Assembly (NCBI GenBank): GCA_036172665.1
Contig: CM069870.1
Span: forward strand, 69,192,212 to 69,256,211
DNA from: Prosopocoilus inquinatus
Taxonomy: Eukaryota; Arthropoda; Insecta; Coleoptera; Lucanidae
Direction: 5' to 3'
DNA: 64,000 nucleotides
Both the position numbers and the translations under genes were made by a program. Below are positions 20,301 to 56,022 of the stretch, piece by piece. The notes under the pieces are model-generated. The model was not told where the DNA came from and searched no databases. It was given only the letters and a program-made list of their open reading frames with translations. Each line of letters opens with the position of its first letter. The stretch's first letter is position 1.

Positions 20301-23300
20301 TCTTCGAATGCACTTCAAAAATTTGCTCTGCAATTCATTTTGTGATAAAATCTCATCGAAAGAGTAATATTTCGAGATTTTCTGTACAGACTTAACGTTA
20401 ACATTTTGCTGTGAACGCCACCTGGTTCCTTTTGCACGAACTATTTCACTTTAAAGTTTCATCTTATCCAAACGACTGCGAATTTTTTCATTTCGTTTTT
20501 GCGACGTCCGGTGAGCTCCGCCCTGTTCTTGAATCTGTCTTGCTCGGGCTCCGAAGAGTTTTGAAAACGCAGCCAGCATGCCAGCGCCATCTGTTGACGT
20601 TACTGGAACTAACTTCGCGATTTTGTTTCTGCGCTTGTTACTTTCAATCTACATGGCGTCTTACTTTGTTTCTGGGAACAAGGAACATCGCCGTCTAAAA
20701 AACTAAAATTAAATAGGAATAAAAACGAAAGAAGATATGAAGGCAGAACGCCACCTGTTTTTGTTTTCCCGAAATGTGTCATTTTAAAATCTCATCATCT
20801 CATGTGCGAGTTCCATTTCGTTTCATGCGACGTCCGTTGAGCGCTGTTCTGCTTTTGAATCTTGTACGGAAGAGTTTTGAAAATGCAGCTTACGTCATGC
20901 AACTAGCACGCCAGCGCCATCTGTTGACGTCTGCGGAACTAATTTCGCGATTTTGTTTCCGTGCTTATTATTTTCAATCCGCACGGCGTCTTGCTTTGTT
21001 TCTGGGAACGGGGAACACCGTCGCCGCCCAAGAAAAAAAAAATTAAATTAAATAAAAATAAAAATGAAAGAGGATATGAAGGAGGGATGACGGATTTCTT
21101 TGCAGCACGAACCAAGTCAACCAGATCGTCCCGGCGAGCCAGGCGACGACGCAGAACCATGTCACGTCCGGCGGGGTGACTATAGTTAAAGTCGGGGGTT
21201 CTCAAACTCAACCGGCCCCCACATCGCAGGGGGGTTACACCCGCAGGGCTAAACTGGGAGACTCGAGAAGCACAGGACGGCTGCACACTGCGACAAACAC
21301 CAACACGCATCGCAGCATGACAAGACTCAATATAGCAGGTGGTTTTTAATTATTTATTTATTTTTTAATCAATCAATCAATCTCCACTCCATCCCAACAA
21401 ACAATTAAAGCAATACGAAGAAGGCTATTGGGTTGATTAAAAGTGAATGAATTGTTAGTAGCTTTCGGGATGTTCCTTTCGGGATTAAAACAGATTTGCT
21501 CAACCAATTTGGAAAGGGAAAGGGAATTGAAAGTATGTATAGACTTTTGAAAGGGAATTCAAAGTATAGTTTTTTGAAAGGGAATTCAAAGTATAAACAT
21601 TTGAAATGGAATTCAAAGTATAGATTTTTGAAATGGAATTCAAAGTATAGATTTTTGAAAGGGAATTCAAAGTATAGACATTTGAAAGGGAATTCAAAGT
21701 ATAGATTTTTGAAAAGGAAATCAAAGTGTAGACTTTTGGAAGGGAATTCAAAGTATAGACTTTGATTTCCCTTTCCCAATTCAATGAGCAAATCTGTTTT
21801 AATCTACAAAGGAATTTCGTTATCGAAAGGTGCATTATTCCTCCAATTTTGAGTGTTTAAGGAGTGATGAACAGTATAAGCTTCGGTAAACTTGGTGTTT
21901 TAAAATAGTGCTCGTATATTATACAGGTGGTTCTGTCGGTGGTTTGCATAAAAGCATGACGAGGTTAAGCTCATCGCAACAAATCAATGCAATTTCCATG
22001 CCCCCAATTGCAGCGCCCACGCCTCCCCTGTCGAATAACGTGATCGTCACCGGGACCAACAAGTGGGGCATTCCGAACATGAGGGTGCTCAGCGGGGGTG
22101 TGACGGTGACGACGATCTCACCCCCGAGGATCCAAAGACCGCACAGTCAAGGCCCATTAACTTTGATAACACCTTCGACATCACACACAAATCATGTAAG
22201 TAAATCTCTCGCTTTCTCTCTCTCTTTAACAAAAGGAAATTTAAAAACTCACATGCAGGTATGGTTACCTGCACAGTTTATCATTTACAAACTGCTTCCT
22301 ATTATTTGGAAACAGCTACCTATCTGCTATTTATACAGGGTGTCCCAAGAGTGCGTTCTCGGGCTATACCTCGTTAACTACTGCAGGTATAAAAAAAGTT
22401 TCAAGACATTTTTATTTCAAAATTTAAAGGTCTGCGACATAAAATTATTTTCACCTATTCAGGGTGAATCAAAACGGCGGTACTGAATGCAACTTTTTTT
22501 AATTTCAAATGGCACACCCTATATATGACATCAAATTTGAATTGCCCATAACATTCTACTCATTTTTCATGTGCCATAATCTATGTCTAATTCTAACCGT
22601 TCTGAAGATATTTAACATTTTATCTAAAAACTGTCGCTTGCAGCCATTATTTTATTTATTCCTATTTTATTTATTTTTAACTTTAGAGAAAAGATGCAGT
22701 TGGTACTTTAGCTTATTCTAAGGCATTATTAAATGTATTTTTACAGTTACAGGGTGATCATGGTACTAAGCAAAATATCAGAAATTTCAAAATGTCATAA
22801 GTCAAATCTCTTAAATAGCATGCCCGATATTTTTATATCCTAAATTGTTCGTCTAACACAGTACTTTCGTTTTTGTCATGCATGTTCTATATCTATATCA
22901 GTACGTAATCCTTGGATGTCTGACGAAATTAAAACTGCTCGCACCAATTTGAATGATTTATTTGTGCTTAAGAACCAGTATCCTGTTTTATGTGATGCGT
23001 AAAACTATCGGAAGGAAGCCTATCGACAGTTATGCAATAATTCGAAGAAAGAGTACTACAATAATCTTTTAGCTAGCTCTTCAAATAAGTCCAAAACTTC
23101 CTGGCACATTATCAATCAACTTGCAAACAGAGATACTAGTCGTCGCGACGTTATGCCTAGCATACTAATAAATTCAATGAACATTTTGAATCCACCCCCA
23201 ATGATATCGTCAATGGGATTCCTAAGGTATCGGTTGACACTTCCAAGTGCATTCAGGCTAATCCACACAGTATGGCTCTGGTCGAATTTTCCGAAACTGA

Positions 23301-26300
23301 ACTATTGAATAGCTGCTCCAAACTTAAAAGCAAATTCTCTTCTGGCATTGACGGTATACCTTCTATCATAATAAAACAATTTAGATGTGAGCTTATAAAG
23401 CCTATTACTTACCTAGTAAATCTATCCCTTCGACCTGGCGTTTTCCCAAACTGCTTCAAAACTGCTATTGTGAAACCCATACATAAGAAAGGTAATGCCG
23501 CAAATTTGACTAATTACCGCCCAATATCTCTCATCTCCAGCATATCTAAAATATTTGAGTATGCGATGTTTGTCAGATTGGAATCATTTCTGATTAATAA
23601 ATACAATATTATCTATCCTTCACAACATGGTTTTAGGAATGGTCAGTCTACCACGACGGCCATCTTCGAGTTCTATAATGAAGTACTTAATTTAATGAAT
23701 GATAAACAGCACCCTGTTGGTATCTTTTGCGACCTTTCTAAGGCGTTTTATTGTGTATCTCATGTTCGTCTTCTGGAGAAACTTAATCTTTATGGCATCA
23801 GAGGACACGTTGCTCAGTGGTTTTTATCCTACTTAAGTGATAGGTTCCAGTTGGTGGAAGTTAGTTTTACACAACGCAATTCTCGACTTAAATTTAGATC
23901 TGGGCCGTTACCAGTTACCATTGGAGTACCCCAGGGCTCTATCCTGGCTCCTCTCCTTTTCAGTATTTATGTTAATGACATTATAAATTTTTTGAGTGAT
24001 CTTGTTGTTGTAATGTATGCTGACGACACCTCTTTCATTGTTTCAAGCAACTCGGAAACAGCTGCCCGTCAACTTGCAAATTCTTTAGCTCAGCGTATGT
24101 ATTCCTGGTTTTGTGCTAACAAACTTTTCTTGAATCTTTCCAAAACAAAAGCTATGTTTTTCCATACACGGCAAAGACGCATTAACGAATCTGGTGGACT
24201 CAAGGTCGGAGATAATTTTGTGCATTTCGCAAATACTACATCCTTTCTGGGTCTTCAACTGTCAGATATTCTCACTTGGGATGACCATGCGAGACAATTA
24301 GTTTCTAAATTGAGCACTTTTGCCTTCCAATTCCGTATGCTGCGTAGTGTAACTGATATCTCCGTGCTAAGGACAACATATTTTTCAGACGTACAGTCAA
24401 GACTTTCCTACGGCCTTATGTTTTGGGGTAGTTCTTCTGCCTTTAACACGGTCTTTCTTGCTCAAAAAAGAGTATTACGTTGCGTGACTGGCACTTCGCT
24501 TAGAGATTCCTGTCGTCCAATCTTCGCTAAACTTAACATTCTGCCTTTGGCTTGTTTATACCGGGTGTCCTGCGCCATGTGCTCACCTTTCTAGAATCTT
24601 TATTTATTAATCGATTAACCTGAATTTTTGAGACGATAAACTAAACAAAAAATGGAATTTTTCGACATACTGATAGAAATCATAGGACTTCCGGTTTCGC
24701 CGTAAGTGATATCAACTTTCTTATTTTAAATAGAACACCCTATATATTTTTACATATTTAAAATCTACGGAGCATTACGACTCCGAATACGTATCAATTG
24801 TTAATTTTGGTTTCCATGACAACGAAAAAAAAACTTTTTTATTTTTCAGTCTAGAAAGCTATGAATCGCATTTTTTCGATCTAATGCGATCAAGTGTTTC
24901 GAAAAAATCACTCCTTCGATGGTATTTTGATTTTTAACATTTTTACAGTATTTGAAATTTTCATTAGCTCTTAAATCATTTTTTTCGATAGAACCTCATG
25001 TGTTTCTTAGCCTAATTCAACAGAACATTTTTTTCTGAGTACACTGATGCCAAATACGTCATATTTTATTTGAAAGTCATTTGAAATAAAGGGAGTATAT
25101 AATTTCAATAAGACATGGTTTATTTTAAATTATTTTCAGAGAAAATATGACGTATTTGGTATCAGTGTATTCAGAAAAAAAATGTTCAGTTGAATTAAGC
25201 TAAGAAACATATGAGGTTCTATCGAAAAAAATGAGTTAAGAGCTAATGAAAATTTCAAATACTGTAAAAATGTTAAAAATCAAAATACCATCAAAGGAGT
25301 GATTTCTTCGAAACATTTGATCGCATTAGATCGAAAAAATGCGATTCATAGCTTTCTAGACTGAAAAATAAAAAAGTTTTTTTTTTCGTTGTCATGGAAA
25401 CCAAAATTAACAATTGATACGTATTCGGACTCGTAATGATCCGTAGATTTTAAATATGTAAAAATATATAGGGTGTTCCATTTAAAATAAGAAAGTTGAT
25501 ATTACTTCCGGCGAAACCGGAAGTCCTATGACGACTATCAGTATGTCGGGAAATTCCATTTTTTGTTTAGTTTATTGTTTCCAAAATTCAGGTTAATCGA
25601 TTAATAAATAAAGATTCTAGAAGGGTGAGCACATGGCGCGGGACACCCGGTATATTCTGCAGCTTGTGTGTTACGTCCATTCTAATCGAAATAATCTGGA
25701 TAATAGAACTGTTCATCTTTATAGTACCCGTCACAACGAAATTCTTCCCAAACTGTATAGTATGGCTATAACCTACAACGGACCTGTCAATACTGGTATA
25801 AAGCTCTATAATGCTCTTCCAACAGATTTAAAAGATTTAAACAATGTGCATTTTAAATCTCAAGTTAAAAACATTTTGTTAAGGGATAAGTTCTATAGTA
25901 TAAGTGAATTTTTAGATCGGCTTAAGTAATTATGTTATGAATTTTGTTGGACTTATTCTACTTGTAGAACTAATAAATATTATTATTATTATTCTTATAT
26001 CTATCTGATAGATTTTTCGAGAGCCTTATATCCATTTGAGTTATTTCTTTTAAAATGTATAATTGTATAAGTTGGCTGTGGAAAAGAGGTAAACTAATTA
26101 TTAATGTCGGCTGGTTCGTTTGTTTTCCATGGCCACCTTAGACAATTACTCGTTTTAACACAAATAAATCATACAGGTCTAGGGTTTTAAAAAAAATATA
26201 GCAGATAGGTACAAGACATGCATGACAAAAACGAAAGTACTGTATTAGATGAACAATTTAGGATATAAAAATGTAGAGCATGCTATAAGAGAATTGACTT

Positions 26301-28411
26301 TGGAAATTTCCGATATTTTGGTTAGTACCATGATCACCCTGTAACGATAAAAATACTTTTAACGGTGGCTTAGAATAAGTTAAAGTATCAACTACATCTG
26401 TACCGAAAATCTTTTCTCTAAAGAGGATAGAAGTCGCAGCTACTAAAGATGGCAGCATAGCTTCCGAAAAACGTATTTAGTTTTTAAAAAAACATAGTGT
26501 GGTTAGGAGTTAAATCCAAATTTATTGTTTTCTCTAAAGTTAAAAATAAATAAAATATGAATAAATAAAATAATGGCTGCAAGCGACAGTTTTTAGATAA
26601 AATGTTAAATATCTTCAGAACGGTTAGAATTAGACATAGATTATGAACATGAAAAATGAGTAGAATGTTACGGGCAATTCAAATTTGATGTCATATATAG
26701 GGTGTGCCATTTAATAATAATAATAATAATAATAATTGAAGTTTGTTCTTGTCCGATGAAAATAGTAAGTAGAAAGTTTTTTTAATCTCAAACCGGACAG
26801 AAAAATGAAGGGAAACACACTCAACGTTTCGCTATAGATTTATAGCTTCGTCAGGAGTGAAAAAAAGTAAATAAACAAGTTGTCAAGAGAAACAAGTCGT
26901 CAAGAGAAACGAAAAGGTAACATGATTTTTAAACTAAACTACGAGTTGTTCGGAATAAAAGTAACGAGAACTAATTAAAGCTACTTTTTTTTTTTCCTAT
27001 AGTTTCCACTATTGGTTCTTCTCCATATTTCTTATCTAAATTTATTTCAAAAATCATTACTCAGGTTACTAGTAAATCAGAATATTTTATAAAAAATTCT
27101 TTTGAACTCGTAGAAAAATTAAAACAAATAACTGTACCAAATAATTGCATTATAATTTCTTTAGATGTTATTTCTTTATTTACTAACATTCCTAAAGATT
27201 TAGCTTTAAAAAGTATAAATGATAGGTGGTTAGAGATTAAAGATTTTACTGATATTTCCAAAGGTAACTTTTTAGAAATAGTTGATTTATGTTTTGAAAC
27301 ATCTTATTTTGCTTTCAATGATAAATTTTATAAACAGATTTTTGGTACAGCAATGGGTTCTCCTTTATCTCCGGCTTTAGCTGAAATTGTTATGCAAGAA
27401 CTAGAAAAATCTGTTATTACCTCTTTATCATTCGATTTAACGTTATATTTTCGTTATGTTGATGACATTTTATTGATTTTGCCTTCTGATAAGGTAGATT
27501 TTGTTTTAAATAAATTTAATTCTTTTCATAATAGATTACAATTTACAGTAGAAAAAGAAAATAATAATTCATTGAGTTTTCTTGATGTAAATATTATCAG
27601 ACAGAATGATAAATTAATTACTAATTGGTTTCATAAACCTACCTGGTCAGGTAGGTACATAAATTTTCACTCGTACACACCTAAAAATTATAAAATTGCA
27701 ACTATTATTTCATTAACTGATCGAGCTATTTTACTTTCTGATAAAGTTTTCATTTATGATAACTTAAATTTAATAAAGAAAACTCTTATTCAAAATTCTT
27801 ATCCAATAAATCTTATTGAATCAGTAATTAAAAATCGTATTAAATACTTACAAAATTCAAATGTCTCTAAAAACATTAGACAAACTTCGAATCATAAATA
27901 CATATCCTTGCCTTATATTGAACAATTACACAATACATTTAAACACATTTTCAAAAAACATAATTTAATTTTAGCCAGTAAATCTGTGAATAATTTAAAT
28001 TTAATTTTTTCGAATTTAAAAACCAAAATACCGAAATTAAAACAACCTAACGTGGTTTATGAAATCAAATGTTCAAATTGTAATTCTGTTTATATAGGTG
28101 AAACGAGCCAAAATTTAAAAAAACGTTTAGACCAACATAAATATCATATTCAAAAAAATAATCAAAATCATTCAATGCTTGTAGAGCATTCATTAGTAAA
28201 TAATCATAATTTTGATTTTGATAATACTGATATTTTGTACAGTGAATCTAATATTTTTAAAAGACGTTTCATAGAAATGTGTAAAATTAAAATGTCTGGA
28301 AATTCTATTAATAAACGTACGGACTTTGAAAATTTAAATGACATATTTTGTAGTTTTCTGGACTCTTTAAACAAGATATAGATCTGTCAATTAATTAATT
28401 ATATATATATA

Positions 28412-28448
<37 letters not shown>

Positions 28449-31400
28449 GCTTTAATTAGTTCTCGTTACTTTTATTCCGAACAACTCGTAGTTTAGTTTA
28501 AAAATCATGTTACCTTTTCGTTTCTCTTGACGACTTGTTTCTCTTGACAACTTGTTTATTTACTTTTTTTCACTCCTGACGAAGCTATAAATCTATAGCG
28601 AAACGTTGAGTGTGTTTCCCTTCATTTTTCTGTCCGGTTTGAGATTAAAAAAACTTTCTACTTAATAATAATAATAATAATAAGGCATTTATTGACTGTA
28701 GTTATAAGTTACAGATGTGTTGAAATAGTAAATTTCCATGAGTCAAAAGGAATAAGTTCAGTTAACACGAGAATGAGTTAACTGATCTTCCACTTAACCT
28801 AAAATTAACCTAAGCTAATCTAAACTAACCTAACCTAAGCTACTAGAGATGATTTTATTTGAATGAATAATAATAATAATAACAACCATTTAAGATTTCA
28901 CAGATACATTTAAGATACATTTAAGATTTTATAGTTCACATAATCTTTTTGAATTGAATGAGAATGAATGAGCCCCGAATATAAGTTATACTACAAATCC
29001 TTGCTGCAAATCATTGCTGTAACCGTAACGCTTGTAAGATGGAAACTTTAAATTGATTTAAAGAAATAGTAGAAAAGTTCAGACATATTGAGTTTATATA
29101 TTTTGCTATAGTATACGTAAAAGAACGTTCAAAAATCGCGATTTTGTGAAGAGGGGGTGTAAGCAAGCCTCTGCTACGCACATTTACGTTATGTACGTCT
29201 GACCGAAAAGATATTTTGTTGTACAGGTACTGGGGAGATCGTTTGCAAAGTATTTTAAAGTACAAGCAAAGTGCATGAAATTTTCTACGGTTGCGCATAT
29301 TAAGCCAACCGGCCCAGTTTAATGTGTGTGAAATGTGCTGACCCCTTCCGATCCCATATATAAATCTGAGACAAGAATTCTGAACTTTTTGAATTCTTTT
29401 GGCATCTCTAAGATCTAAGCAGGGGCCGTAAACATTATCACAGAAGTTGAATAACGAAAGCACAAGCGTATCGCAAAGAGTTTTACGAATATTCTGAGGT
29501 AGAAAATTTTTACTACTATATAAAACTCTGAAAATGCCATAAGATTTATTAATTACTGAAGAAATATGGCTAGTGAATCTTAAATTGCAGTCGATAGTTA
29601 AACCGAGGTTTCTAGCAGAAGTTACGGTAGGCAAAGTGAGGTTGTTTGTATGTAAATCCAAGTTACTGAGAGCCAAATTGTGCCGTTTACGAGGTCCAAA
29701 CACGAGAATTTTACATTTCTCAGGATTAATGTTCAGACAATGTTTGTCAGAGATATCTATAAGGGCGTTTAAATCGTTATTAATTAACTCACTATGATCA
29801 GAAGTGTAATTTGCATCAAAGATGTGAGACAGCTGTGTGTCGTCTGCGTACATATGATATTTGCACACTTTTAGGACTTCGATTAAATAACTGGTATATA
29901 TTGAGTAGAGTAATGGTCCCAAAATAGAACCTTGCGGTACGCCACATGCAACTGCCAGGGAACTAGAGACGGAATTGCCCAACCGAACACATTGTGTTCT
30001 GTTGGATAGATAATTTGAGAAGAATTGAGTAGCTTTGGATTTGAAATAAAAAAGTTGCATTTAGTACCGCCGTGTTGATTCACCCTGTGTGGGTGAAACT
30101 AATTTTATGTCGTAGACCTTTAAGTTTTAAAATAAAAATGTCTTGAAACTTTTTTGATATCTGTAGTAGATATCGAGATATAGCCCGAGAACGCACTGTT
30201 GGTACACCCTGTATATTACTTCATTCCATTTTTGAAAAAAAAAAAATATTCTTGTGTGGTTATGACTTATGATTGAATGGACGTATGTGTACAAGACAAA
30301 AATGTTTTTTTTTTATAGATCACAATAAACCCCGTCCAAATTACGAGCCCCTATGGAAGTACAAACACAACTAACTCCGTGACGGTCAGCTCTGTGTACA
30401 ATGGACCGATTTCCAGCGGACAGGTTTCGGTTGTCACCAGTGGCAGCAACAACATGACGAGCCAGACGATTCCGGTGGGCTCTTCGAACAATCACGTGTC
30501 TGTAACGGACTCCACGAACAGCACCACCGGTGGTGGTAACTTAACATCCGCAATGGGCAGTGGTAAGCGCACCCCTTGCAACCAAAAACATTCAGCACAA
30601 AACTCTGCGTATATTCAGGACATGTGAACGTGATGGGACCGACGACGGTAACGTCGAGGAGACCCAACAACACCAGCATCACGTTGCTGAACGCGAACCA
30701 AGGGATTGCGTCGCAGCGAATCAGCGTATTCGAGCCGTATCCGATGCGAGACACCATCCAGCACTTCTGCGAGAAGCACCTGGACAAGATCAAGTCGTAC
30801 ATGGAGAAGATGTCGGTGAAGATTCCGCCGCCGGTCAAGTGCACCATCGAAGAGAAAAGGCAGAAGAAGTGCGCGAAGCTGCACTTCGCTTGCCAGGCGA
30901 GGGGGCAACACTGCCTGTACTCGAGGACGTTCTTCACCATGCGCACCAGGAATCCCCGGATATGGATCCACCTCATGTTTATAGCTTTGCAGGTAAGGTG
31001 GATAAAATTTTTGAAAAAGATACGGCGCACAGTGGGGCCAAATGCCCGATTTATGGAAAAAAGCTCTCATTTCCAGAATTTTTGTCCGATCGAAGTGAAA
31101 CACATGAAATTTCAAGAAGGTACTAAATAACAATTTTTGACTTTCTCAAAGTTTCAAAAAAGAATTTTTTTATAAGGTATAATCATTTTAATTTTACTCC
31201 AAGTGCAGAACGTTTTTATGTACCTATTACAAACTAACAGTGAGGAGCTCTGTTAGCTTACTTGATTCAACAAATCATGTTTGTACGGACCGCTGGTGCT
31301 GTTTTTCGCATCTTTATTCAACTTCGTATTCAATATACAGGCTGTTTCAAATTCGACCCTCACTGGGGATCTCGCTTATTTGAACAGATAGACGGTAGGT

Positions 31401-34400: not shown

Positions 34401-37400
34401 TAAGCAACTTTCCTAATTTTTTTAATATTTAAAGAATTTTCCAGTTTTTCTCGATTTTTTCATTTCGACATACAGGTTTTTTTAAAAATATTTTGCACCC
34501 TATCTAGAGGCTTTATTTAAGCAGCTGAGAAAAACTTTAATTGCAGAAGTTGTAGGGTGAGTCCTATTATCTTTTAGAGTTATCACAAGAAACAGGAGCG
34601 CGTTCCAGATCGGAGAAAAAATAGAATTTTTGTTTCGGCGAGGGAAATTTGGCCTTGATATGGACTCCATCTTGGAATCCAAGATGGCGGCGGTCCGACT
34701 TAGAAAAATGTCTGTATCAATGTAAACCTGTCGTGTGGAGTGTCAAATTAAACGACTGGGCGAGGGTTATTAAACTCTGATCCCGACGCCATCTTGGTAT
34801 TCAAAATGGCAGCGGCGCGATGTGGAAAAGCGTCCGTGTCGATGTAAACCCATCGTGCGGGGTGTCGCATTAAACGCTCGGGCGAGTTCGGCAGTTCGGC
34901 CATCATCCCGACGCCATCTTGGAATCCAAGATGGCGGCGGCGCAATGTCGAAAACCGTCCGCGTCGATGTAAATTTTTCCTTTTTTTTTAATGGAACACC
35001 CCGTGTATTGGTAACATTAAAGATCGCAGTTTCCCGATTTCAAAAATATATAACATGTTGATATTTGGAAGTGGAGCTGATTGTGACATATTTGAGGTTA
35101 GAATTAATGTTTAAAATATTAAGGCGGGGGGTTTCCAGTATACGAATTTCTATTGTTATTGTTATATTAAAAAAAAAACTGTACTGTAGGAAAACTACTA
35201 ATTTATTTATTTTTTAATTTGTACTTTTATTAATGGAGGAAATTGAAAAAAGAAAAAAATTATAAACAATTAATTTTAATGTGCTAGTTTGACAATAAAA
35301 AATACACTTTTTTTTATTAACGGAAAGCCGTACCGTGGGCAAAACAACGACTCCACACTTTATATGGTTGCCTACACTAAAGGCGGTAAAAATATTATTA
35401 TTGTCCAGAAACACCTACAAATTCGTACAAGTCAAGTTCTTAATTATTTTAAATTGTTAAAACAATTTTTCAATTCTCCCTGATGACACAGAAAACGTAA
35501 TGGACGTGCAAAGAGTAGGAATTTATTTATTTTTTTAATTTTCACGTTTATTAATGGAGACGCCTTACTTATAAGCAACCCAAAAAACAAGGTCGTTTGA
35601 ATGGTTGCCTATACCAAAGGGTTCAAGAACACCTTTCAAATTTAAAATTGTGTTAAAACTTTTTTAAAGATTCACTGAAGTTATGCAATTCTCATAAATT
35701 TCTTAATAATTTCAAACGATTTTCCATTTTTTTTTCTTTTCTAATTTCAGGAAGCAATTTTGAACTTTTAATAAAAGCACAAAAATCGTTAAATCAATTT
35801 AGTTTTATGTTTCATATAAAAAAAATATTTTTCAGTTTTCTATGGAGAAAACTATTGACTTTTGTCTAAAAACTAATTTTGAATTTTTAGTAAAAGTTCG
35901 AAAATTATGAAGTCTTGGTTTGACAGGATATGTTTTATGTTTTCTGTAAAAAAAAATATATTTTCGGTTTTCATTGGAGAAAATTATTGAATTTCCTTTA
36001 AAAACTATAAACAATTAATTTTAATAATATGCCATTTGGCCAAAAATAAATAAATTAAATGTTCTGTTAACAGACAGCCTTCGAGTATAGGCAAATCAAT
36101 GATTCAGATATTCGTACGGTTGCCTACACCAAAGGCGGTAGAAGTGTTCTTTTCGTGCAGAAGATTTACTTATAAGCAACCCCAAGACAAGGTCGTTTGA
36201 GTGGTTGCCTATTCTAAAGGATCCAAGAACATCTTTTAAATCTAATCACTGAAATTATGCAATTCTGGATATTTCAAACAATTTTACACTTTTTTTTTAA
36301 TTTTGGGAAACAACTTTGAATTCTCAGCGGATGTACCCAAATTATTAATTCAAGTCGCTTACGTTACAGCAGGAAATAAGTAAATTACACTCAGAATTAA
36401 AAATAATCGATAATAAAACTTTTAGTAGGTTACTAATTTAAGCCAATTTGTTCTGGCAGAAAACACGTTTCGTGTAAAAAAAACGTATTCCTACCGCCTG
36501 CGCCTGTAGTGTAAGCAACCATCCAAACTGCTGAGTTCATCGTTTTGTCTACCGTGTAAGGCTTCTTATTAAAAAAAAAAAAAACTTAGAGTTTCACAAA
36601 AATTATTTAATCACTGATTAATTTAACAGCATGAATAAAGCCTGTGATTGGTTGGGTGGTGGGTGGCTTCAAATCTATTGTTAACTTCGCCCAGTGATGT
36701 TCCTAAATCAGAGAATTAAATTAATCGCTGATTTACAATTTTTTTTGTGAAACCCAGCGTAAGTTTTTTAATTTTTAATTTTTAGAGAAACTAGCGAGCT
36801 ATTAGAATTAAAGGCATTTCAATAAAAGCTCAGGAAGCTTTCACGAGATTGCCCGAGTTTACGCGACTGTCCTCGTTTTTAAATGTTAAAAAAAAAAAAC
36901 AATTTTCCAGTTCTTTTAAATTTGAGAAAACTTTAAAAACACAAATACAAATATTAATTTTAGTAACACGCCTGCGCCTGTCCGTTTTTTAAAAATTAGA
37001 CTTTAAAAATACGAAGTTTCAGTATAGGCAACCAACACATGCGTTTGTAGGGTTGCCCTACAATTTTTTTTTTTTAATGAAAGCGCGACTACGGATGCAT
37101 TTATACTTTATCAGGGAGACATTACTTACTTTTAATTCCTGGCCATACGTGAGAGAATTTTTTTCTTTTTTATGTAAAGGCATAACATAAGGACGAAACG
37201 CATTCAATAATCTTTAAAAATATATAAAAAAATGAGTCTTAATTTATACTACGCCATTTCCGCAAACATAGGACGTGTCTACAATAGAAATTATAAAAAA
37301 ATTTAATCGGAGTTGCCAACGATCATTTAATGAAAAATTTTGTGCAAATCGTTTTTGATTGCAGTGAGAACCTCGAGCAGCCTCTGGACAGCTGTTTCAG

Positions 37401-40285
37401 CCCTGCTTGGGGCTTCTTCAGCAGAAACGTAGCTCGACATTCCCACTGCAGACCAAAAACGACTTGCCCAATTTATTCGCAAATGCGATGTAAGAATGAT
37501 GAACATATAAAATAGCGACATCTTACTATCACTTTTTGACCTAACATTGCAGTAGGATAGACAAATTGAAGCGGGATTTGCTCCTAATGAGTCCCCCATG
37601 CAAGGCGGCCATGCTTGCTGTCAAAGCATAATGAAAGATTTTAGAAAAATTTTGTGCAAATCGTTTTTGATTGCAGTGAGAACCTCGAGCAGCCTCTGGA
37701 CAGCTGTTTCAGCCCTGCTTGGGGCTTCTTCAGCAGAAACGTTCAGCTTCAATTTGTCTATCCTACTGCAATGTTAGGTCAAAAAGTGATAGTAAGATGT
37801 CGCTATTTTATATGTTCATCATTCTTACATCGCATTTGCGAATAAATTGGGCAAGTCGTTTTTGGTCTGCAGTGGGAATGTCGAGCTACGTTTCTGCTGA
37901 AGAAGCCCCAAGCAGGGCTGAAACAGCTGTCCAGAGGCTGCTCGAGGTTCTCACTGCAATCAAAAACGATTTGCACAAAATTTTTCTAAAATCTTTCATT
38001 ATGCTTTGACAGCAAGCATGGCCGCCTTGCATGGGGGACTCATTAGGAGCAAATCCCGCTTCAATTTGTCTATCCTACTGCAATGTTAGGTCAAAAAGTG
38101 ATAGTAAGATGTCGCTATTTTATATGTTGATCATTTAATGATGCGAACAGATAAATTATTTAGTTTTGTTATTTTATAAGCGTCTGGTGTTAGAAAATTG
38201 AAAAGAAATTGTCATTTAAAGCAAACAAAACCAGTTTTGAGCCAAAAAAACCCGAAGGAAAAAATGATTTGTATAAATAATAGATACAGTTCTCTTTAAT
38301 CTTCAAACAATTACTTTCGTGATTTATAATTTGACGTTAGCAACCTCCCCTGACGAAGGATTAACAGCAGAAATCGGTACAGGGTTACCACACCATTTAT
38401 TTACATTGAAACATTCTCAGACTTTTGTGATTTTGATGTAGGTACCAAAACTGATAATTTAATATTTTTTATGATCACGTGGATTATGGAGAGAACTGTG
38501 GAATTACCTTTAAAAGTAATTAATTTTAATAGTTGTTTAAAAAGAATAAATTAGAATTTTTAACAGGAAACAAGAAGTTTTAGTATAGGCAACCAAATTA
38601 ACACAGTTGTACGTATGATTGCCTATGCTTAGAACATGCAAGAATTTTTTTCTGTGTTCAAAACGTGATTAACTGTTCACAATTCACTTAAAGCAATTAT
38701 ACTAATTATTCTTTTTATACGTCAAACAATTTTCCATTTTTTTAATATTATTTTAGGAAACAAATTTCCAAAGTTCTTCAATTCAATATCTCAATTCCCC
38801 GATTTTTCCTGATGCATGGGAACCCTGCTGTGGCTACAAAATCCGTCTAAAATAAATATTATGAAGTGCTATTTATGCAAATTATTATTGAATTTGATTT
38901 GGACACGTCTTAAGATCAAAAAGACAAAAATTGTAATTTTTTAACCCATCACAGTCGCATCGTCCTCATGAAATTAATTCATTTCCCATTTCACGTCAAC
39001 TATGTTTTGCTTTTGCGTTCCTTTTTTGCCATACTTACCCTGTGGTTTAGGTGATTTAAAGCGAAACTTGAAAGCAAATCAAATTTCATTTCAATAAAAG
39101 CTCAGGAAGCTTTCACGAGATTGCCCGAGTTTACGCGACTGTCCTCGTTTTTAAATGTTAAAAAAAACAATTTTCCAGTTCTTTTAAATTTGAGAAAACT
39201 TTAAAAACACAAATACAAATATTAATTTTAGTAACACGCCTGCGCCTATCCGCCTGTCCGTTTTTTTTTAAATTAGACTTTAAAAATACGAAGTTTCAGT
39301 ATAGGCAACCAACTTAACACATGCGTTTGTAGGGTTGCCCTACAATTTTTTTTTTTTAATGAAAGCGCGACTACGGATGCATTTATACTTTATCAGGGAG
39401 ACATTACTTACTTCTAATTCCTGGCCATACGTGAGAGTATTTTTTTCTTTTTAATGTAAAGGCAAAGTCTCCCCATGCGTTGAGCTCGAGGGACCCCAGC
39501 GTAACCAGCCTTAAACATTACTGGGACATGTTGAAGTGCGAGAATAAGACGTTCCTCACGGTTGTGACGAGCGCGTTTCCCTGCACCAAGGACCAGGACA
39601 TGCTGTTGAACGAGCTGAGGCATTCGGGGTTTTTCGATGTGTTTCAACTCTGCCCCGGTAGTGTGGGGGGCTCGGCCGATCAATTGGAAGCCAACTCCTT
39701 TCAGTGGGGTTGCTTTTTATGTGCGCATCCAGAGCGTGCCGTTGGATTCTTAAGAGGTAGGTGGTAAAAGGCTTGTTAGTGGCTTCCAACTTTTTTAATT
39801 CTAATTCATATTCGAACGGGCAGTTAATGAAAATAATTATTACTTTAAGGCGACGCTCAACCAGTCATAGAAGGCCAATTAAAAGAAAAGAAAGGCAGAT
39901 GGAGACTCTTCAGGCGTTGGCGTACGAGATACTTCACCTTATCGGGTGCTCACCTTTCCTGTCGTGGCTCCGTAAGCCCCTCCCTCGAGTTGCCCCCTCG
40001 AGCAACCAACTCACTTTATTATGGTTTTAGAGCGGTGGAGAGAGCATCGATATAAACCAGATCCAGTCGGTGAAAGTGTCTCGGGGCGCGAGGAACATTC
40101 CGAAGGCGTTCGAGATTTTCACCGGCAACCAGACGCTCATCCTCAAGCCGAAAGATGGGAAGAACGCAGAGGAGTGGGTGCAGTGCTTGAGCATCGTGGT
40201 GGCTCATTCGCATGCGAAGGAGCTGCCGGCCAAGAGCAATTCTTTGCCGGGGAGAGGACTCGGTGCTAGTCGTACAGCTATATAA
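8080..40285 (+). CDS. melt: melted / VEPH1-family PH-domain protein (12 exons, 5' partial)
   Basis: Joined coding exons: 8080-8328, 8622-8796, 8853-9016, 14507-14716, 14785-14954, 21106-21338, 21927-22195, 30319-30562, 30619-30992, 39462-39756, 39850-39971, 40031-40285. All boundaries are AG/GT and the phases close to one frame of 919 residues plus stop. The N-terminal 320 or so residues form a helical-repeat region (motifs [40 protein letters not shown]) typical of Melted. A Ser/Thr/Asn/Gln-rich linker follows (about 320-600), then a conserved segment and a C-terminal PH domain (about 799-897) with the closing EEWVQCLS helix. In flies Melted binds membrane phosphoinositides, tunes FOXO and TOR signalling and opposes Warts in photoreceptor fate. 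The first visible exon begins inside the protein, so about 35-40 N-terminal residues and the promoter lie upstream. Confidence 0.93.
8365..8583. mobile_element. hAT-type MITE, copy A
   Basis: Terminal inverted repeats CAGGGATAAGAAATCGGCCC and the matching end GGGCCGAATTCGTTTCCCTG enclose 219 bp. Flanks are CTAATAGAT (left) and CTAATAGT (right), close to an 8-bp duplication with one indel. A second copy of the same family lies at 34168-34382. It sits in the melt intron between exons A and B and has no coding capacity. Confidence 0.85.
8622..8796 (+). CDS. melt: melt exon B
   Basis: Acceptor CTTTATTTCAG|AATTATAG, donor ATATCAG|GTGG. It encodes [20 protein letters not shown] and on to MDSIIS, the best conserved part of the N-terminal helical region. 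It ends after the first base of a Gly codon. Confidence 0.93.
8853..9016 (+). CDS. melt: melt exon C
   Basis: Acceptor GGAATTTCAG|GGAACTAC, donor CCCATT|GTAAGT. It encodes [20 protein letters not shown] through LIAKDNPI. The preceding intron is only 56 bp, in contrast to the 5.5-kb repeat-filled intron that follows. Confidence 0.93.
9266..10730 (+). mobile_element. Decayed Tc1/mariner (IS630-like) transposon with subterminal repeats
   Basis: Ends are TACCTTTTCAATTTCAAATT and its complement, each next to a TA dinucleotide (9264-9265 and 10731-10732), the expected target. Both ends carry direct repeats of about 21 bp on the theme TTTCAAATTGGGAATAAACAA, roughly four on the left (9276-9362) and seven inverted on the right (10565-10728). 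Total length is 1,465 bp. The element lies in the melt intron after exon C, just inside a CAGTGTTGCCAAC hAT-like terminus at 9230. Confidence 0.88.
9476..10482 (+). pseudogene. Tc1/mariner-superfamily transposase, broken
   Basis: An N-terminal helix-turn-helix piece starts at 9476 ([25 protein letters not shown]) and stops at 9619. A middle piece is open in another frame at 9603-9788. The catalytic part is open from 9880 and is preceded by an in-frame TGA near 9855. It shows MDETNF (first Asp), VIDNAPCH (second Asp) and [14 protein letters not shown] (third acidic residue, an Asp), with 35 residues between the second and third. At least two frameshifts and one stop mean this copy is inactive. 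The final Asp instead of Glu places it outside classic Tc1 DD34E elements. Confidence 0.88.
10734..11865. repeat. Intronic sequence, diverged repeats only
   Basis: Nothing coding is seen. 11042-11170 is related to 1-230. Short imperfect repeats such as GAAACTATCCTAGA / GACACTATCCTAGA occur near 10890-10950, and a CT dinucleotide run occupies 11829-11860 at the border of the next array. Confidence 0.5.
11870..14010 (+). repeat. GATCGTCTTTTGTTT degenerate tandem array A
   Basis: Tens of copies of a core close to TCGATCGTCTTTTGTTTA occur, all in the same orientation. At the left a unit of about 178 bp is clear (TCGGTTTCGATCGTCTTTTG at about 11920, 12098, 12276). A higher-order duplication of about 695 bp pairs 12355-12780 with 13050-13480. 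The array fills most of the melt intron between exons C and D. Open frames inside it (13077-13346, 13578-13781) follow from the repeat. Confidence 0.85.
14507..14716 (+). CDS. melt: melt exon D
   Basis: Acceptor TTGATATTCCAG|TTACTAGAAG, donor AAGTAAG|GTACAC. It encodes [20 protein letters not shown] and on to [13 protein letters not shown], an ARM/HEAT-like helical segment. It joins in frame (phase 0) to exons C and E. Confidence 0.93.
14785..14954 (+). CDS. melt: melt exon E
   Basis: Acceptor TTTGTGCAG|GCACGCG, donor CCGACAAG|GTAAGAAG. It encodes [20 protein letters not shown] through [10 protein letters not shown] and closes the helical N-terminal region. It ends with AG of a split Ser codon completed 6.1 kb downstream. 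Confidence 0.92.
15250..15770 (+). repeat. Array B: about 96-bp units with GTCGATCTTCTTTTG
   Basis: Six units start near 15255, 15343, 15443, 15535, 15631 and 15735, each with GTCGAT(C/T)NTCTTTTGTTTTTGAAT followed by CGTCTTCGTACCTCC-like text. The core is a close relative of array A. Apparent ORFs (15125-15469 +, 15243-15434 -) are repeat products. Confidence 0.8.
16312..16450. mobile_element. Palindromic MITE, about 139 bp
   Basis: Arms beginning TGGGCGCGTTCAG and ending CTGAACGCGCCCA pair almost throughout, with inner blocks such as GCTCAGCGGCTGAGTTGCTTA matching TAAGCAACTCAGCCGCTGAG. The loop is only a few bases around TTAATGTG. There is no coding capacity. It is nested in the hAT-like element at 15135-17600. 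Confidence 0.85.
16451..17580. other. Non-coding intronic sequence
   Basis: The interior of the 15135-17600 element. A local inverted pair (GATCTTTGCTGAATA.. near 16850 with TCGGCAAAGATCAA near 16890) is seen. A minus-strand ORF at 16738-17121 shows no recognisable family and is not called. Confidence 0.4.
17632..18060. mobile_element. hAT-like terminus plus hairpin repeat
   Basis: 17632 onward (CGGCGTTGCCAATCAACTCG, then AAAATTCCTTTTTCG) matches the reverse complement of about 5633-5678, which ends in the same CAGTGTTGCC motif, so both are ends of one family. Inside, 17704-17833 forms an inverted repeat: ATGTCCGATTTCTTCATCTC with GTACAAAAATCGGGCAT, and CTGATAAATTTATCTG with CAGTTAAATTTATCAG. 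Confidence 0.5.
18565..18574 (+). repeat. Isolated hAT-like left terminus
   Basis: CAGTGTTGCC followed by AAACTCATC. No matching right end with the flanking 8-mer ATCATAAA was found downstream. It lies shortly before array C. Confidence 0.4.
18799..18997. repeat. Short tandem pair plus inverted copy
   Basis: TTGTCGTTGACGCCCCTTT..AATAGCGACATCTAGTGT..GAGTAGGAGA occurs twice in tandem (18799-18868 and 18869-18935). A third, inverted copy (TACTCCGTGTCACGTGCTCA..TGTCGCTATTACA) follows at about 18952-18995. Confidence 0.8.
19000..19720 (+). repeat. Array C: GATCGTCGTTTGTTTTT degenerate repeat
   Basis: Repeated CGATCGTCGTTTG / CGATCGTCATCAG / GCGATAGTGATTTG phrases separated by T-rich spacers on the + strand, related to arrays A and D. 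A fragment of the ribozyme-repeat end (GATAAAACAGCGACATCTGA..CTTTTTGACCTGA, 19433-19472) is embedded on the minus strand. Confidence 0.7.
19950..21050. repeat. Four-unit tandem repeat of about 310-340 bp
   Basis: GCGCCATCTGTTGAC-type phrases recur near 19985, 20270, 20583 and 20920, and CGCCACCTG(G/T)TT..CACTTTAAA near 20113, 20417 and 20758. Two units share GCGATTTTGTTTCYGYGCTT (20620, 20947). It lies directly upstream of melt exon F. Confidence 0.75.
21106..21338 (+). CDS. melt: melt exon F
   Basis: Acceptor GATTTCTTTGCAG|CACGAACC, donor ATAGCAG|GTGG. It encodes a low-complexity Ser/Thr/Asn/Gln linker ([20 protein letters not shown], later [20 protein letters not shown]). The assignment rests on matching phases with exons E and G and on open frame; the sequence itself is poorly conserved. 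Confidence 0.85.
21463..21830. mobile_element. 27-bp minisatellite inside an inverted-repeat element
   Basis: About eight tandem copies of a 27-bp unit (GGAATTCAAAGTATAGATTT plus TTGAAAG) lie between perfect 20-bp inverted arms GATTAAAACAGATTTGCTCA (21483-21502) and the complement at 21785-21804. The outer flanks also pair roughly (TTCCTTT). Because 27 is a multiple of three, frames stay open on both strands; these are not genes. It sits about 100 bp before melt exon G. Confidence 0.85.
21927..22195 (+). CDS. melt: melt exon G
   Basis: Acceptor TATATTATACAG|GTGGTTC, donor AATCAT|GTAAGT. It encodes [20 protein letters not shown] and later [20 protein letters not shown], part of the linker. 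It is phase 1 in and phase 0 out, followed by the 8.1-kb intron that holds the nested elements. Confidence 0.9.
23272..25929 (+). pseudogene. LINE reverse transcriptase, interrupted by element H3
   Basis: Open at 23272-24560 and resumed at 25653-25929 if H3 and one TA are removed. RT landmarks in order: [46 protein letters not shown] (normally ..AFDxVxH, so a conserved Asp is Tyr), [28 protein letters not shown] (catalytic YADD) and FLGLQLSD. The rejoined C-terminus reads [20 protein letters not shown], typical of this LINE family. Confidence 0.88.
24561..25650. mobile_element. Near-perfect long hairpin element H3
   Basis: Ends CCGGGTGTCC / GGACACCCGG with TA on each side (24559-24560, 25651-25652). 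Arms of about 510 bp (to about 25070 and from about 25142) pair with few mismatches around a loop of about 70 bp. There is no coding frame. The target is the LINE 1 open frame, which is restored exactly if the element and one TA are removed; this fixes the target duplication at 2 bp. Confidence 0.9.
26818..26859 (-). ncRNA. Hammerhead ribozyme motif, left flank of the Penelope-like element
   Basis: The minus strand has helix I CACTC/GAGTG, core CTGACGA, one extra A, helix II GCTATA/TATAGC, GAAA, then helix III ACGT with no loop and U17 at the cleavage site. It is the inverted copy of the motif at 28571-28612. Confidence 0.8.
26996..28381 (+). CDS. Penelope-like RT with GIY-YIG endonuclease domain (5' truncated)
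   Basis: The frame is open from 26996 without a start codon, through about 461 residues to TAG at 28379-28381. RT signatures are [38 protein letters not shown] and [10 protein letters not shown] (YVDD). The C-terminal part has [20 protein letters not shown] followed by LKKRLDQHK, a GIY-YIG nuclease signature, with a Cys pair (CSNC) before it as in Penelope-like elements. The frame is intact apart from the missing N-terminus. The first in-frame ATG (27353) lies inside the RT domain and is not a credible start. Confidence 0.93.
   Translation, partial: PIVSTIGSSPYFLSKFISKIITQVTSKSEYFIKNSFELVEKLKQITVPNNCIIISLDVISLFTNIPKDLALKSINDRWLEIKDFTDISKGNFLEIVDLCFETSYFAFNDKFYKQIFGTAMGSPLSPALAEIVMQELEKSVITSLSFDLTLYFRYVDDILLILPSDKVDFVLNKFNSFHNRLQFTVEKENNNSLSFLDVNIIRQNDKLITNWFHKPTWSGRYINFHSYTPKNYKIATIISLTDRAILLSDKVFIYDNLNLIKKTLIQNSYPINLIESVIKNRIKYLQNSNVSKNIRQTSNHKYISLPYIEQLHNTFKHIFKKHNLILASKSVNNLNLIFSNLKTKIPKLKQPNVVYEIKCSNCNSVYIGETSQNLKKRLDQHKYHIQKNNQNHSMLVEHSLVNNHNFDFDNTDILYSESNIFKRRFIEMCKIKMSGNSINKRTDFENLNDIFCSFLDSLNKI
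28571..28612 (+). ncRNA. Hammerhead ribozyme motif, right flank of the Penelope-like element
   Basis: CACTC (28571-28575), CTGACGA (28576-28582), extra A (28583), GCTATA-AATC-TATAGC helix II (28584-28599), GAAA (28600-28603), CGT completing a 2-bp loop-less helix III, U17 (28607), then GAGTG (28608-28612). Every invariant core base is present. The tiny helix III matches the minimal hammerheads reported in Penelope-like elements, which are thought to cleave as dimers. Confidence 0.85.
28664..30051 (-). mobile_element. 5'-truncated non-LTR retrotransposon (LINE 2)
   Basis: On the minus strand, RT C-terminal half and 3' region ending in a (TTA)n tail at 28664-28682. The same tract continues at 26713-26735, across the inserted Penelope-like element. 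It sits in H1 in opposite orientation to LINE 1. The 3' non-coding part contains CCTAA-like runs (28796-28845). Confidence 0.82.
29011..30060 (-). pseudogene. LINE 2 reverse transcriptase fragment
   Basis: 349 residues. The first few codons (about 30052-30060) come from the H1 arm, so the ATG is accidental. Landmarks are [53 protein letters not shown] (YADD) and [15 protein letters not shown], then the usual Leu-rich C-terminal region ([10 protein letters not shown]). The fingers part of the RT and the endonuclease are missing. The remaining frame has no stop, suggesting a fairly young copy. Confidence 0.88.
30319..30562 (+). CDS. melt: melt exon H
   Basis: Acceptor TTTTTTTTATAG|ATCACAATAAAC, donor GGGCAGTG|GTAAGC. 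It encodes [20 protein letters not shown] and a Ser/Thr/Asn-rich stretch. It ends after one base of a Gly codon. Confidence 0.9.
30619..30992 (+). CDS. melt: melt exon I
   Basis: Acceptor GTATATTCAG|GACATGTG, donor GCTTTGCAG|GTAAGG. After a short linker it enters the conserved C-terminal half: [60 protein letters not shown]. It is followed by the 8.5-kb intron with stem-loop repeats. Confidence 0.95.
31338..31975. mobile_element. Palindromic TA element H4
   Basis: Ends CAGGCTGTTTCAAATTCGAC / ATTTGAAACAGCCTG with TA on each side (31336-31337, 31976-31977). Arms of about 150 bp pair (GGGGATCTCGCTTATTTGAA with TTCAAATAAGCGAGATCCCC); the centre, about 31490-31820, is A/T-rich and unpaired. No coding frame. 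A related end, TTTGAAACAGCCGGTA, lies at 62443. Confidence 0.88.
32997..33752. mobile_element. Inverted-repeat element with a likely 10-bp duplication
   Basis: Left end TAATGTTGGGCAATGCGTAT.. and right end ..AAGTATCGCCCAACAC pair (GTTGGGC / GCCCAAC and the GTATCGATAC-rich text inside). CAGTTTAAAC flanks both sides (32987-32996, 33753-33762). The 756-bp interior has no coding frame. Confidence 0.7.
34168..34382. mobile_element. hAT-type MITE, copy B
   Basis: Same family as 8365-8583. Ends CAGGGGTAAGAAATCGGCCC / GGGCCGAATTCTTTTCCCTG, 215 bp, flanked by TTCATAAT (34160-34167) and TTCATAAC (34383-34390), an 8-bp duplication with one change. Confidence 0.9.
34490..35000. repeat. Tandem repeat of about 124 bp with CCATCTTGG palindromes
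   Basis: About 2.5 units start near 34665, 34790 and 34913, each opening with CCATCTTGGAATCCAAGATGG-type palindrome text and containing GTCGATGTAAA and GGTGTCGCATTAAACG. The region is GC-richer than its surroundings. It ends near AATGGAACACCCCGTGTAT (34990), a terminus type seen on the TA-flanked hairpin elements. Confidence 0.8.
36815..37182 (+). repeat. Segmental duplicate 1, includes a decoy 3' splice site
   Basis: 368 bp nearly identical to 39087-39464. Shared text runs from CATTTCAATAAAAGCTCAGG to CCTGGCCATACGTGAGAG, the T-tract and TGTAAAGGCA. In copy 2 this last phrase is the acceptor of melt exon J; here it is followed by TAACATAAGG and no exon. Confidence 0.9.
37380..37428 (-). ncRNA. 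Hammerhead ribozyme motif (family 2, copy 1)
   Basis: The minus strand reads helix I GTTTCTG, core CTGAAGA, helix II AGCCC-CAAGCA-GGGCT, GAAA, CAGCTGT giving a self-complementary loop-less helix III ACAGCTGT, C17, then CAGAGGC closing helix I with two G-U pairs. All core positions are canonical. Confidence 0.8.
37692..37740 (-). ncRNA. Hammerhead ribozyme motif (family 2, copy 2)
   Basis: Same sequence and strand as the copy at 37380-37428. It belongs to the second minus-oriented module, which jumps to CAGCTTCAATTTGTC right after the ribozyme. Confidence 0.8.
37890..37938 (+). ncRNA. Hammerhead ribozyme motif (family 2, copy 3)
   Basis: Plus-strand copy: GTTTCTG, CTGAAGA, AGCCC-CAAGCA-GGGCT, GAAA, CAGCTGT, C17, CAGAGGC. 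Together with the minus copies it makes the element a large inverted repeat. Confidence 0.8.
38142..39086. other. Non-coding intron sequence
   Basis: Unique-looking AT-rich sequence with one stem-loop unit at about 38576-38630. CCTGACGAAGG at 38350 resembles the 5' half of a hammerhead core but lacks a GAAAC half and is not called. No coding exon. Confidence 0.5.
39087..39464 (+). repeat. Segmental duplicate 2, carries the true melt acceptor
   Basis: 378-bp partner of 36815-37182, about 2.27 kb downstream. It ends at TGTAAAG|GCA, exactly the 3' splice site used by melt exon J. Confidence 0.9.
39462..39756 (+). CDS. melt: melt exon J
   Basis: Acceptor T-tract..AATGTAAAG|GCAAAG; an alternative AG six bases later (start 39468) keeps the same frame. 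Donor TTAAGAG|GTAGGT. It encodes [37 protein letters not shown] and [12 protein letters not shown], the conserved segment before the PH domain. Confidence 0.93.
39850..39971 (+). CDS. melt: melt exon K (PH domain, first half)
   Basis: Acceptor TTACTTTAAG|GCGACG, donor GGCTCC|GTAAGC. It encodes [20 protein letters not shown] followed by [16 protein letters not shown]. The basic run in the first strand-loop region of the PH fold is where phosphoinositides bind. Confidence 0.95.
40031..40285 (+). CDS. melt: melt exon L (PH domain, second half, stop)
   Basis: Acceptor ATGGTTTTAG|AGCGGTGG, stop TAA at 40283-40285. It encodes [39 protein letters not shown] and [17 protein letters not shown], i.e. 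the last strands and C-terminal helix with the invariant Trp, then a short tail ending LGASRTAI. Confidence 0.95.
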
Positions 40286-45082: not shown

Positions 45083-45679
45083 TTAATGCTCGCTGGGCGG
45101 AGGAGGAAGTATCATTGTTTTTAGCTGGTGTACGAAACCGCAGTTCGGCCGAATGCAGCTCCTGGCTCTCTTGACTAAGTCGTAGGCAGCGCTGTACTCC
45201 AGCTCGTCCTCCAACATGAGAAACCCGATGGCAATCGCTGATGACCGAGAAACTCCCGCGTTGCAGTGGATTAAGACACGCTCGTTGTTTGCGATTGCAC
45301 CTCGGATGAACGGAACACATAACCCTGTCAGGATGTTTACGATGTTTGTTTCAGGCAGGTCTAGACACTCGACGAATTTGTAAGTCACACCGGGTTGGAG
45401 GGTTTGAGCTTGAACCCCAAGGCTTAACACGTTTGTGATGTTGTGCTTGCAAAGCACCGAAGGCTCGCAGCAATCTTGAGAACCCAAGTAGATATTGGGG
45501 GTGATTTCGCTGGGGACATTGTCAGGTTTTGTGTCGACGACAAAACCGTATTTTGCATCGGCAATTGCGAGGACCTGATTTTTCGTTTCTATAAACCGTC
45601 GTCCATCGACTTGCGTTATCACAGTGTCAGAGTGCTTGAGACGATTACGTTTGTTTTGTAAGGCTTCCAAAAGACTCAT
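45083..45679 (-). CDS. Dual-specificity phosphatase, DUSP19-like
   Basis: Intact single-exon frame, 198 residues. The DSP domain spans about 58-190: YGFVVDTKPD just before it, NIYLGSQD at 62-69, general-acid loop ECLDLPETNI (Asp107) and P-loop HCNAGVSRS with nucleophile Cys139 and Arg145 (HCX5R). The C-terminus reads ARSCIRPNCGFVHQL. FVVDTKPD, LDLPETNI and the end motif are like vertebrate DUSP19/SKRP1 (about 217 residues), which acts in JNK pathway control; substrate here is inferred only from that. There is no kinase-interacting rhodanese domain, so it is an atypical DUSP. It lies on the same strand as B52 and 170 bp downstream of it. A retrocopy origin could explain the lack of introns, but no poly(A) tract or duplication is seen. 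Confidence 0.93.
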   Translation of the reverse strand: MSLLEALQNKRNRLKHSDTVITQVDGRRFIETKNQVLAIADAKYGFVVDTKPDNVPSEITPNIYLGSQDCCEPSVLCKHNITNVLSLGVQAQTLQPGVTYKFVECLDLPETNIVNILTGLCVPFIRGAIANNERVLIHCNAGVSRSSAIAIGFLMLEDELEYSAAYDLVKRARSCIRPNCGFVHQLKTMILPPPPSEH

Positions 45680-45847
45680 CCTGCCAATGGGAAGTGGGGG
45701 GGAGGGGCAAACTTCTAATACGTACCATAAAAAACAATACTAGTAAACAAGTAGTATGAAACATGGAACTATTATAAAAAGAAAAAGAAAAGTAATTGCT
45801 AACTTCAATGCGTCTCTCGTTCTTGTTATTGAATCTTATTTAGGTTT

Positions 45848-55973: not shown

Positions 55974-56022
55974 GCCTCTGTACAGCTGTTTCAGCCCTGT
56001 TTGGGGCTTCATCAGCAGAGAC
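55974..56022 (-). ncRNA. Hammerhead ribozyme motif (family 2, copy 4)
   Basis: Minus strand: GTCTCTG, CTGATGA, AGCCC-CAAACA-GGGCT, GAAA, CAGCTGT, A17, CAGAGGC. Relative to the 37-kb copies, N7, the helix II loop and H17 differ, all at positions where variation is allowed. Confidence 0.8.

Follow-up and report, generated by a model that had tools for sequence, protein, structure and literature searches.

Head-to-head insertions of a hammerhead retrozyme in Prosopocoilus inquinatus: two fixed outer ends and probable priming of one RNA circle from both target strands

The window, the whole 64,000-nucleotide stretch of Prosopocoilus inquinatus contig CM069870.1 that was analysed, contains the coding sequence of a DUSP19-like protein (45083-45739; best named relative in Holotrichia oblita at 60% identity, other beetles next), two LINE-like reverse transcriptase (RT) ORFs (23161-24594 and 29011-30060), Penelope-like elements (PLEs) and, at 37334-38128, the 795-bp insert that is the subject of this report. 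A 1.1-kb self-inverse palindrome at 24557-25654 (92.8% identity) is possibly another inverted element. The boundaries of the 795-bp insert, given in an earlier note on this DNA, proved base-exact, and the 13-bp target site duplication (TSD) around it is perfect, which supports the note's view that it fits retrotransposition; at 4000 random window positions examined with equal slack, a bracketing direct repeat of at least 11 bp occurred in 1.2% and one of at least 13 bp in 0.75%. The insert was also rightly called gene-less: eight ORFs of at least 40 amino acids overlap it, the longest of 96 amino acids, and none is gene-like. As no ORF with RT and GIY-YIG domains lies within it, the element is not itself a PLE, though inserted like one.

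Both halves of the element can be read round a single unit of 312 nt (GC 43%), which was taken from the right arm and numbered so that u0 is window position 37746. The left arm, when reverse-complemented, matches this unit from u142 on, and the final 71 nt of the right arm exactly repeat its first 71. This reading is free of mismatches, and a circle accounts for the inverted arms. The outer ends fall in two windows of the unit, termed site A (u231-251) and site B (u60-81). The features are as follows.

37321-37333, no strand: left copy of the TSD, GATCATTTAATGA, an exact 13-bp repeat of 38129-38141
37334-37742, minus strand: putatively A-primed arm, unit antisense, u550 back to u142, 409 nt, 1.3 turns, outer end at site A; 0 mismatches against the unit from the other arm
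37380-37428, minus strand: hammerhead motif 1 (motif scan), predicted cut between 37387 and 37386
37692-37740, minus strand: hammerhead motif 2 (motif scan), predicted cut between 37699 and 37698, 312 nt from motif 1
37743-37745, no strand: TCA filler at the head-to-head junction, u142 joined to u0 (unit alignment)
37746-38128, plus strand: putatively B-primed arm, unit sense, u0-u382, 383 nt, 1.2 turns, outer end at site B; 71-nt exact self-repeat
37890-37938, plus strand: hammerhead motif 3 (motif scan), predicted cut between 37931 and 37932
38129-38141, no strand: right copy of the TSD, an exact 13-bp repeat of 37321-37333

The three hammerheads described earlier were confirmed by pattern and have type I topology. 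The motifs follow type I order, every unit having CTGANGA, a helix II of 5 bp, GAAA, the palindromic ACAGCTGT and a helix I of 7 bp. When both strands of the window were scanned with a relaxed motif, seven matches resulted: the three just described, a pair in another copy of the element (55924-56440) and a pair in the PLE. Rfam gave no hammerhead at gathering score in the element (best match HH9, 14.5 bits, E 2.8), and neither a genome-contig collection nor a viral-contig collection contained an exact hammerhead pattern (0 matches in each). Helix III had been thought to pair only between two RNA molecules; ACAGCUGU can, however, also close as two pairs with an AGCU cap, a closure that resembles an axolotl motif described in PMC7229834. 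Given the 312-nt spacing, a minus-strand RNA spanning motifs 1 and 2 could release one unit-length monomer.

Folded as a circle, the sense strand of the unit reaches a minimum free energy as low as -110.2 kcal/mol and the antisense strand one of -82.4 kcal/mol; 100 dinucleotide-preserving shuffles of the sense unit averaged -73.0 kcal/mol (SD 5.2), and none was as low as the real sequence. In the predicted fold, the hammerhead lies within a long hairpin (about u101-u231) that is flanked by unpaired hinges, one with site A at about u239-u246 and the other with site B at about u65-u73. The circle of the second copy is predicted to reach -108.4 kcal/mol, with some pairing near site B.

Further copies of the element, and the PLEs among which they lie, were located in the window by the means given in parentheses.

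26738-28667, plus strand: 5'-truncated PLE with inverted pLTRs, each with a minimal hammerhead, and a 30-bp tail at the left end only (ORF and domain analysis, motif scan)
55924-56440, plus strand: second copy, A+B, two hammerheads with a CTGATGA core, 11-bp TSD CACTAAAATCA (motif scan, TSD search)
56452-56540, minus strand: very short PLE insertion beside the second copy, tail-less end joined to tailed end, 12-bp TSD (sequence reading)
57188-57323, plus strand: third copy, A+B, short arms, T/G run at the junction, hammerhead absent, 12-bp TSD TTTATATTTATA (sequence reading, motif scan)
19432-19489, minus strand: fourth copy, 58 bp, A end joined to B end, 13-bp TSD TGAAACAGTTTTC (sequence reading, TSD search)
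63043-63069, plus strand: fifth copy, an A-end fragment only, inside a 20-bp low-complexity direct repeat (sequence reading)

Three of these four further copies thus have one A and one B end, and one is an A-end fragment. The second copy also has a 312-nt unit, identical at 290 of 312 positions and without gaps to that of 37334-38128. It lies within the target duplication of the short PLE insertion (55913-56552), and from this nested position one AT-rich site was apparently hit twice, by a PLE and by the retrozyme. The junction of the third copy consists of 14 T followed by 11 G, unlike the unit, and is possibly an untemplated addition or a later expansion.

A search of the host genome (650 Mb, 173 contigs) yielded 1144 first-look candidates, of which 40 were scored, with a bias toward copies resembling the query element. 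Forty distinct loci, after 10 duplicate loci were left out, provided 43 insertion rows, 39 main rows and four added ones; three loci (L039, L040, L049) were absent from the first counts and were added afterward. Among the 43 examined insertions, 37 have one A and one B outer end and one has two A ends (L016). In the 34 fully classed main rows the A+B pair was found 33 times (P = 2e-9 under independent, equal end choice), and the arms run antisense and then sense in 36 of 36 two-ended main rows. Apart from L016, the exceptions are three single-armed insertions (L035, L041, L046) and one with an end at u179 (L038); the right end of L005 is displaced by a deletion and is B by eye, and L041 has an 11-bp TSD by eye, with nine extra bases in place of the B arm. 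One insertion (L081; G000:C4:42896200-42899900, 1313-2915) has A and B outside and three inversions inside, as if its cDNAs had switched template several times.

The arms differ widely in length. In the main rows, A arms span 107-1804 nt and B arms 49-1391 nt, the longest making 5.8 turns, and more than one turn is made by 19 of 33 A arms and 20 of 35 B arms (the latter list including the u179 arm of L038). Arrays reach about seven units (L050, L026). Direct repeats occur within the arms, and the insertion as a whole is inverted. The inverted modules reported in the earlier note stood as to the arms, which over 248 and 241 nt are 100% complementary, and did not stand as a fixed design, since inner junctions vary among insertions. 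The related proposal of inverted ribozymes on both strands as the design of the element was likewise set aside: both arms are copies of one sense RNA, and the unlikeness of inner junctions from insertion to insertion indicates that the inversion arises at integration.

TSDs of at least 9 bp were tabulated for 29 of the 39 main rows and three window copies, and measured 9 bp (1), 10 bp (1), 11 bp (2), 12 bp (14), 13 bp (12) and 14 bp (2), with 26 of 32 at 12-13 bp; no TSD of at least 9 bp was seen in 10 of the 39 rows. Their composition is 83% A+T, versus 66% in the window. Base preferences at the two nicks, compiled from 27 rows, are weak and alike on their respective strands, G being commonest right after the nick (10 and 13 of 27). 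Inverted arms, fixed outer ends and a target duplication would also be expected of a MITE or fold-back DNA transposon that had undergone internal deletions and carries its hammerheads by accident. This reading is scarcely credible: the outer ends A and B differ, leaving no single terminal inverted repeat, the arms grow by whole 312-nt turns, and the TSD varies from 9 to 14 bp.

At the inner junctions, an exact overlap of at least 2 nt between the joined arms was found in 24 of 34 cases versus 17% expected from random joins (P = 6e-12; the count is of exact matches, and rises to 25 when mismatches are tolerated). The pair u138/u0 recurs in four insertions (L002, L013, L019, L045) with the arms swapped or their lengths off by whole turns, in a sample that was picked by likeness to the element and so favours u142 and u0 junctions; these recurrences are read as reuse of good microhomology and not as copying of a composite. 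The junctions also bear on a snap-back origin, in which a single cDNA folds back on its own 3' end and serves as its own template, a route of the self-priming kind suggested for Penelope in PMC3846280. In three of 34 junctions (L029, L032, L050) the joined unit positions are almost identical, as snap-back would have it; the other 31 join unlike positions, which argues against it as the general route, and the second fixed end at B is not predicted by it. Snap-back is accordingly very doubtful as an explanation of these insertions.

Comparison of the arms suggested where their sequence came from. In 31 insertions (30 of the 39 rows and the second window copy at 55924-56440), the two arms of an insertion differ by 0.0159, versus 0.0309 (SD 0.0018) when arms are re-paired among insertions, and none of 5000 re-pairings was as low; 31% of variant sites are shared by the two arms, versus 5% on re-pairing. 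The sequences thus indicate a common template lineage for the two arms of each insertion. Of 74 rare variant calls, 69 are on one arm and five on both, as expected of mutations arising after insertion. Away from u41 and the end windows, common variants are uniform among passes in 26 of 39 cases and mixed in 13, and these mixed variants, together with the few shared rare ones, could reflect a linear multimer template or later mutation. Two-ended target priming in which the template is a linear multimer transcribed from an existing array, in place of a circle, is an alternative that deserves weight, if an unlikely one. Arrays of up to about seven units do exist (L050, L026), and the 13 mixed cases are in keeping with a linear template; the 26 uniform cases, the 0 mismatches in 2765 arm-to-arm comparisons in L050, and the cleavage that an active hammerhead would inflict on multimers speak for the circle, though none of the three is decisive.

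At one position, u41 (window 37787 and its repeats), C is present in some passes and T in others in 11 of 31 insertions (L006, L008, L015, L017, L025, L026, L028, L031, L043, L047, L048). The mean is 0.55 insertions per site, and the other CpG sites of the unit show 0-2. The u41 mixing may come from a modified RNA base misread by reverse transcriptase, or from a local mutation hotspot.

The same insertions allowed the conservation of the hammerhead to be evaluated. Other copies with intact cores, on which the earlier note made its reading depend, do exist: 72 of 84 complete passes (31 insertions) keep the core and the helices, with one mismatch in helix I tolerated. Deviations from the majority base number 7/1092 in the core, 7/102 at H17, 3/97 at N7, 3/593 in loop 2 and 378/28049 over the whole unit. 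Per position, H17 and N7 are thus more variable, and loop 2, though also free, hardly varies. The anticipated covariation was not found among units that are about 98% alike; the two window units differ at eight pairs, of which three are kept one-sidedly, five are broken and none is compensatory. Substitutions between these two units fall at 8 of 192 paired versus 14 of 120 unpaired positions (P = 0.02), and five broken among the eight changed pairs compares with a null value of 7.8 (P = 0.11). Of the variants present in at least two insertions, 13 of 24 preserve pairing, versus 11 of 56 of the single-insertion variants (P = 0.003), an excess that is due to fewer transversions (4/24 versus 31/56); with transitions alone it is not significant (13/20 versus 11/25, P = 0.23). 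Depletion from the core of variants in at least two insertions was not demonstrated (2/45 versus 3/104). Selection on structure is, on these comparisons, at best weakly suggested.

Attention to the PLEs of this genome provides a candidate kind of enzyme source for the element. The ORF of the window PLE (26975-28381) contains RT and GIY-YIG domains, and the best named relatives of its protein are those of ants and other Hymenoptera, at about 40% identity. A genome search with the tailed pLTR gave 1267 first-look candidates; the 40 scored are all about 100% identical (rounded), which points to a young family. Both ends could be read in 13 PLE insertions (L051-L080 and the window), and 12 of the 13 have the 30-bp tail at one end and a tail-less A at the other; as the query included the tail, one tailed end was given for the copies found, while the tail-less partner was not. 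In the remaining one (L054), the tail-less end stops about 20 nt before A. TSDs were found in 11 of 12, two in AAT repeats and the remaining nine of 11-14 bp. From the hammerhead cut to A the distance is 56 nt in the PLE and 54-61 nt in the retrozyme, and from the cut to B it is 86 nt and 192-200 nt, respectively. The ends of the element and of the PLE show no sequence likeness by eye.

Enzymes of the LINE type are also represented in the window by the two RT ORFs named above. In twin priming, a by-product of LINE-1 activity, both target ends prime on one RNA, and the junction is inverted and has microhomology. Twin priming by a LINE-type enzyme is nevertheless distinctly unlikely here. The second start of LINE-1 varies and lies internally; in the insertions examined both starts are fixed, the two-ended event is the rule, and the TSD is nearly fixed, like that of the local PLE.

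The fixed pair of ends, the head-to-head sense, the multi-turn arms, the microhomology at the joins, the nearly fixed TSD and the common template lineage can be read from the sequences themselves, and the element is likely a single inserted non-LTR retrozyme, its RNA circle having been primed from both strands of a target cut by a PLE enzyme. Sense transcripts would be cut by the hammerhead, presumed active, into 312-nt units and ligated into rod-like circles. A Penelope-type enzyme, probably a dimer, would cut the target with a stagger of 12-13 bp. Reverse transcription on the same putative sense circle would then be primed by both target 3' ends, one starting at site A, which lies 54-61 nt beyond the ribozyme cut, and the other at site B, across the ribozyme hairpin; the two starts would thus be recorded in the fixed outer ends. 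The two cDNAs would run unequal distances, up to 5.8 turns, before their 3' ends join, usually via 1-4 nt of microhomology, and fill-in would complete both the head-to-head palindrome and the duplication of the target. New monomers might come from long arms, which have several ribozymes in series. Confidence in two-ended priming on a circle is slightly lowered by L054 and by the mixed variants. In a more particular form, to which we give slightly more belief than doubt, the two RTs of one Penelope-type dimer would sit on the two hinges of one viroid-like circle, each primed by one target strand, roll round it, sometimes repeatedly, and have their products joined head to head.

Comparison with known systems supports the identity put forward in the earlier note, that of a PLE-linked, non-autonomous, retrozyme-like element. 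With the metazoan non-LTR retrozymes described by Cervera and de la Pena (2020, PMC7229834), it shares a hammerhead of type I, units that lack genes, measure about 170-400 nt and have GC below 50%, a TSD of more than 4 bp, the presence of PLEs in the genome and, with some of them, a weak helix III. Those retrozymes are described as tandem direct repeats, from dimers upward, whereas the examined insertions have head-to-head arms and two fixed outer ends; the word "inverted" is absent from the main text of that paper. Return of the retrozyme circle to the genome is only proposed there, with target DNA or a small RNA as the primer and PLEs as strong candidates for mobilisation. The newt and axolotl satellite hammerheads (PMC7229834) likewise have a short palindromic helix III favouring dimers, with units of 330-350 bp; they form direct tandem repeats, and the description given of them there includes no inverted, two-ended anatomy. 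Plant LTR retrozymes (PMC7761336, PMC4918200) also use a hammerhead-processed circular RNA intermediate, such as would be used by the element. They are described with a type III hammerhead, LTRs with PBS and PPT, and a 4-bp TSD, and identity with them was rejected on the type I topology and the 13-bp TSD.

The nearest parallels in integration are those of PLEs. A purified PLE protein was reported to cut and extend both strands, with two internal start sites that delimit the tail (PMC11167929), and the pLTRs of Penelope are described as inverted, one of them sometimes carrying a tail, with self-priming on an antisense template suggested as the source of the head-to-head ends (PMC3846280). Inverted ends, an optional tail of 30-40 bp on one end, AT-rich targets and, on the reading favoured here, two internal RT starts with cutting and extension of both target strands are, going by these two accounts, common to PLEs and the insertions examined here. 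PLEs differ in a TSD of 8-10 bp in the cited papers, versus 12-13 bp here; they encode RT and GIY-YIG and have minimal hammerheads, while the element encodes nothing. A search of the literature, mostly non-subscription, found no report of head-to-head retrozyme insertions or of a two-fixed-end integration anatomy. The element is known in kind, with its integration anatomy apparently the unreported part.

For retrozymes and Penelope elements together, these insertions point to one testable answer both for the return of retrozymes to the genome and for the inverted ends of Penelope, namely priming by both strands of the target at two fixed starts. If a dimer does act on the circle in the manner suggested, the rule of one A and one B end would belong to the ribonucleoprotein and be common to PLEs, where it takes the form of tail and no tail, and each insertion would be a multi-pass record of one RNA molecule, including the C and T at u41. 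Such insertions would then amount to natural sequence reads that pass several times over a single RNA circle, and could serve the study of reverse transcriptase fidelity and of RNA modification.
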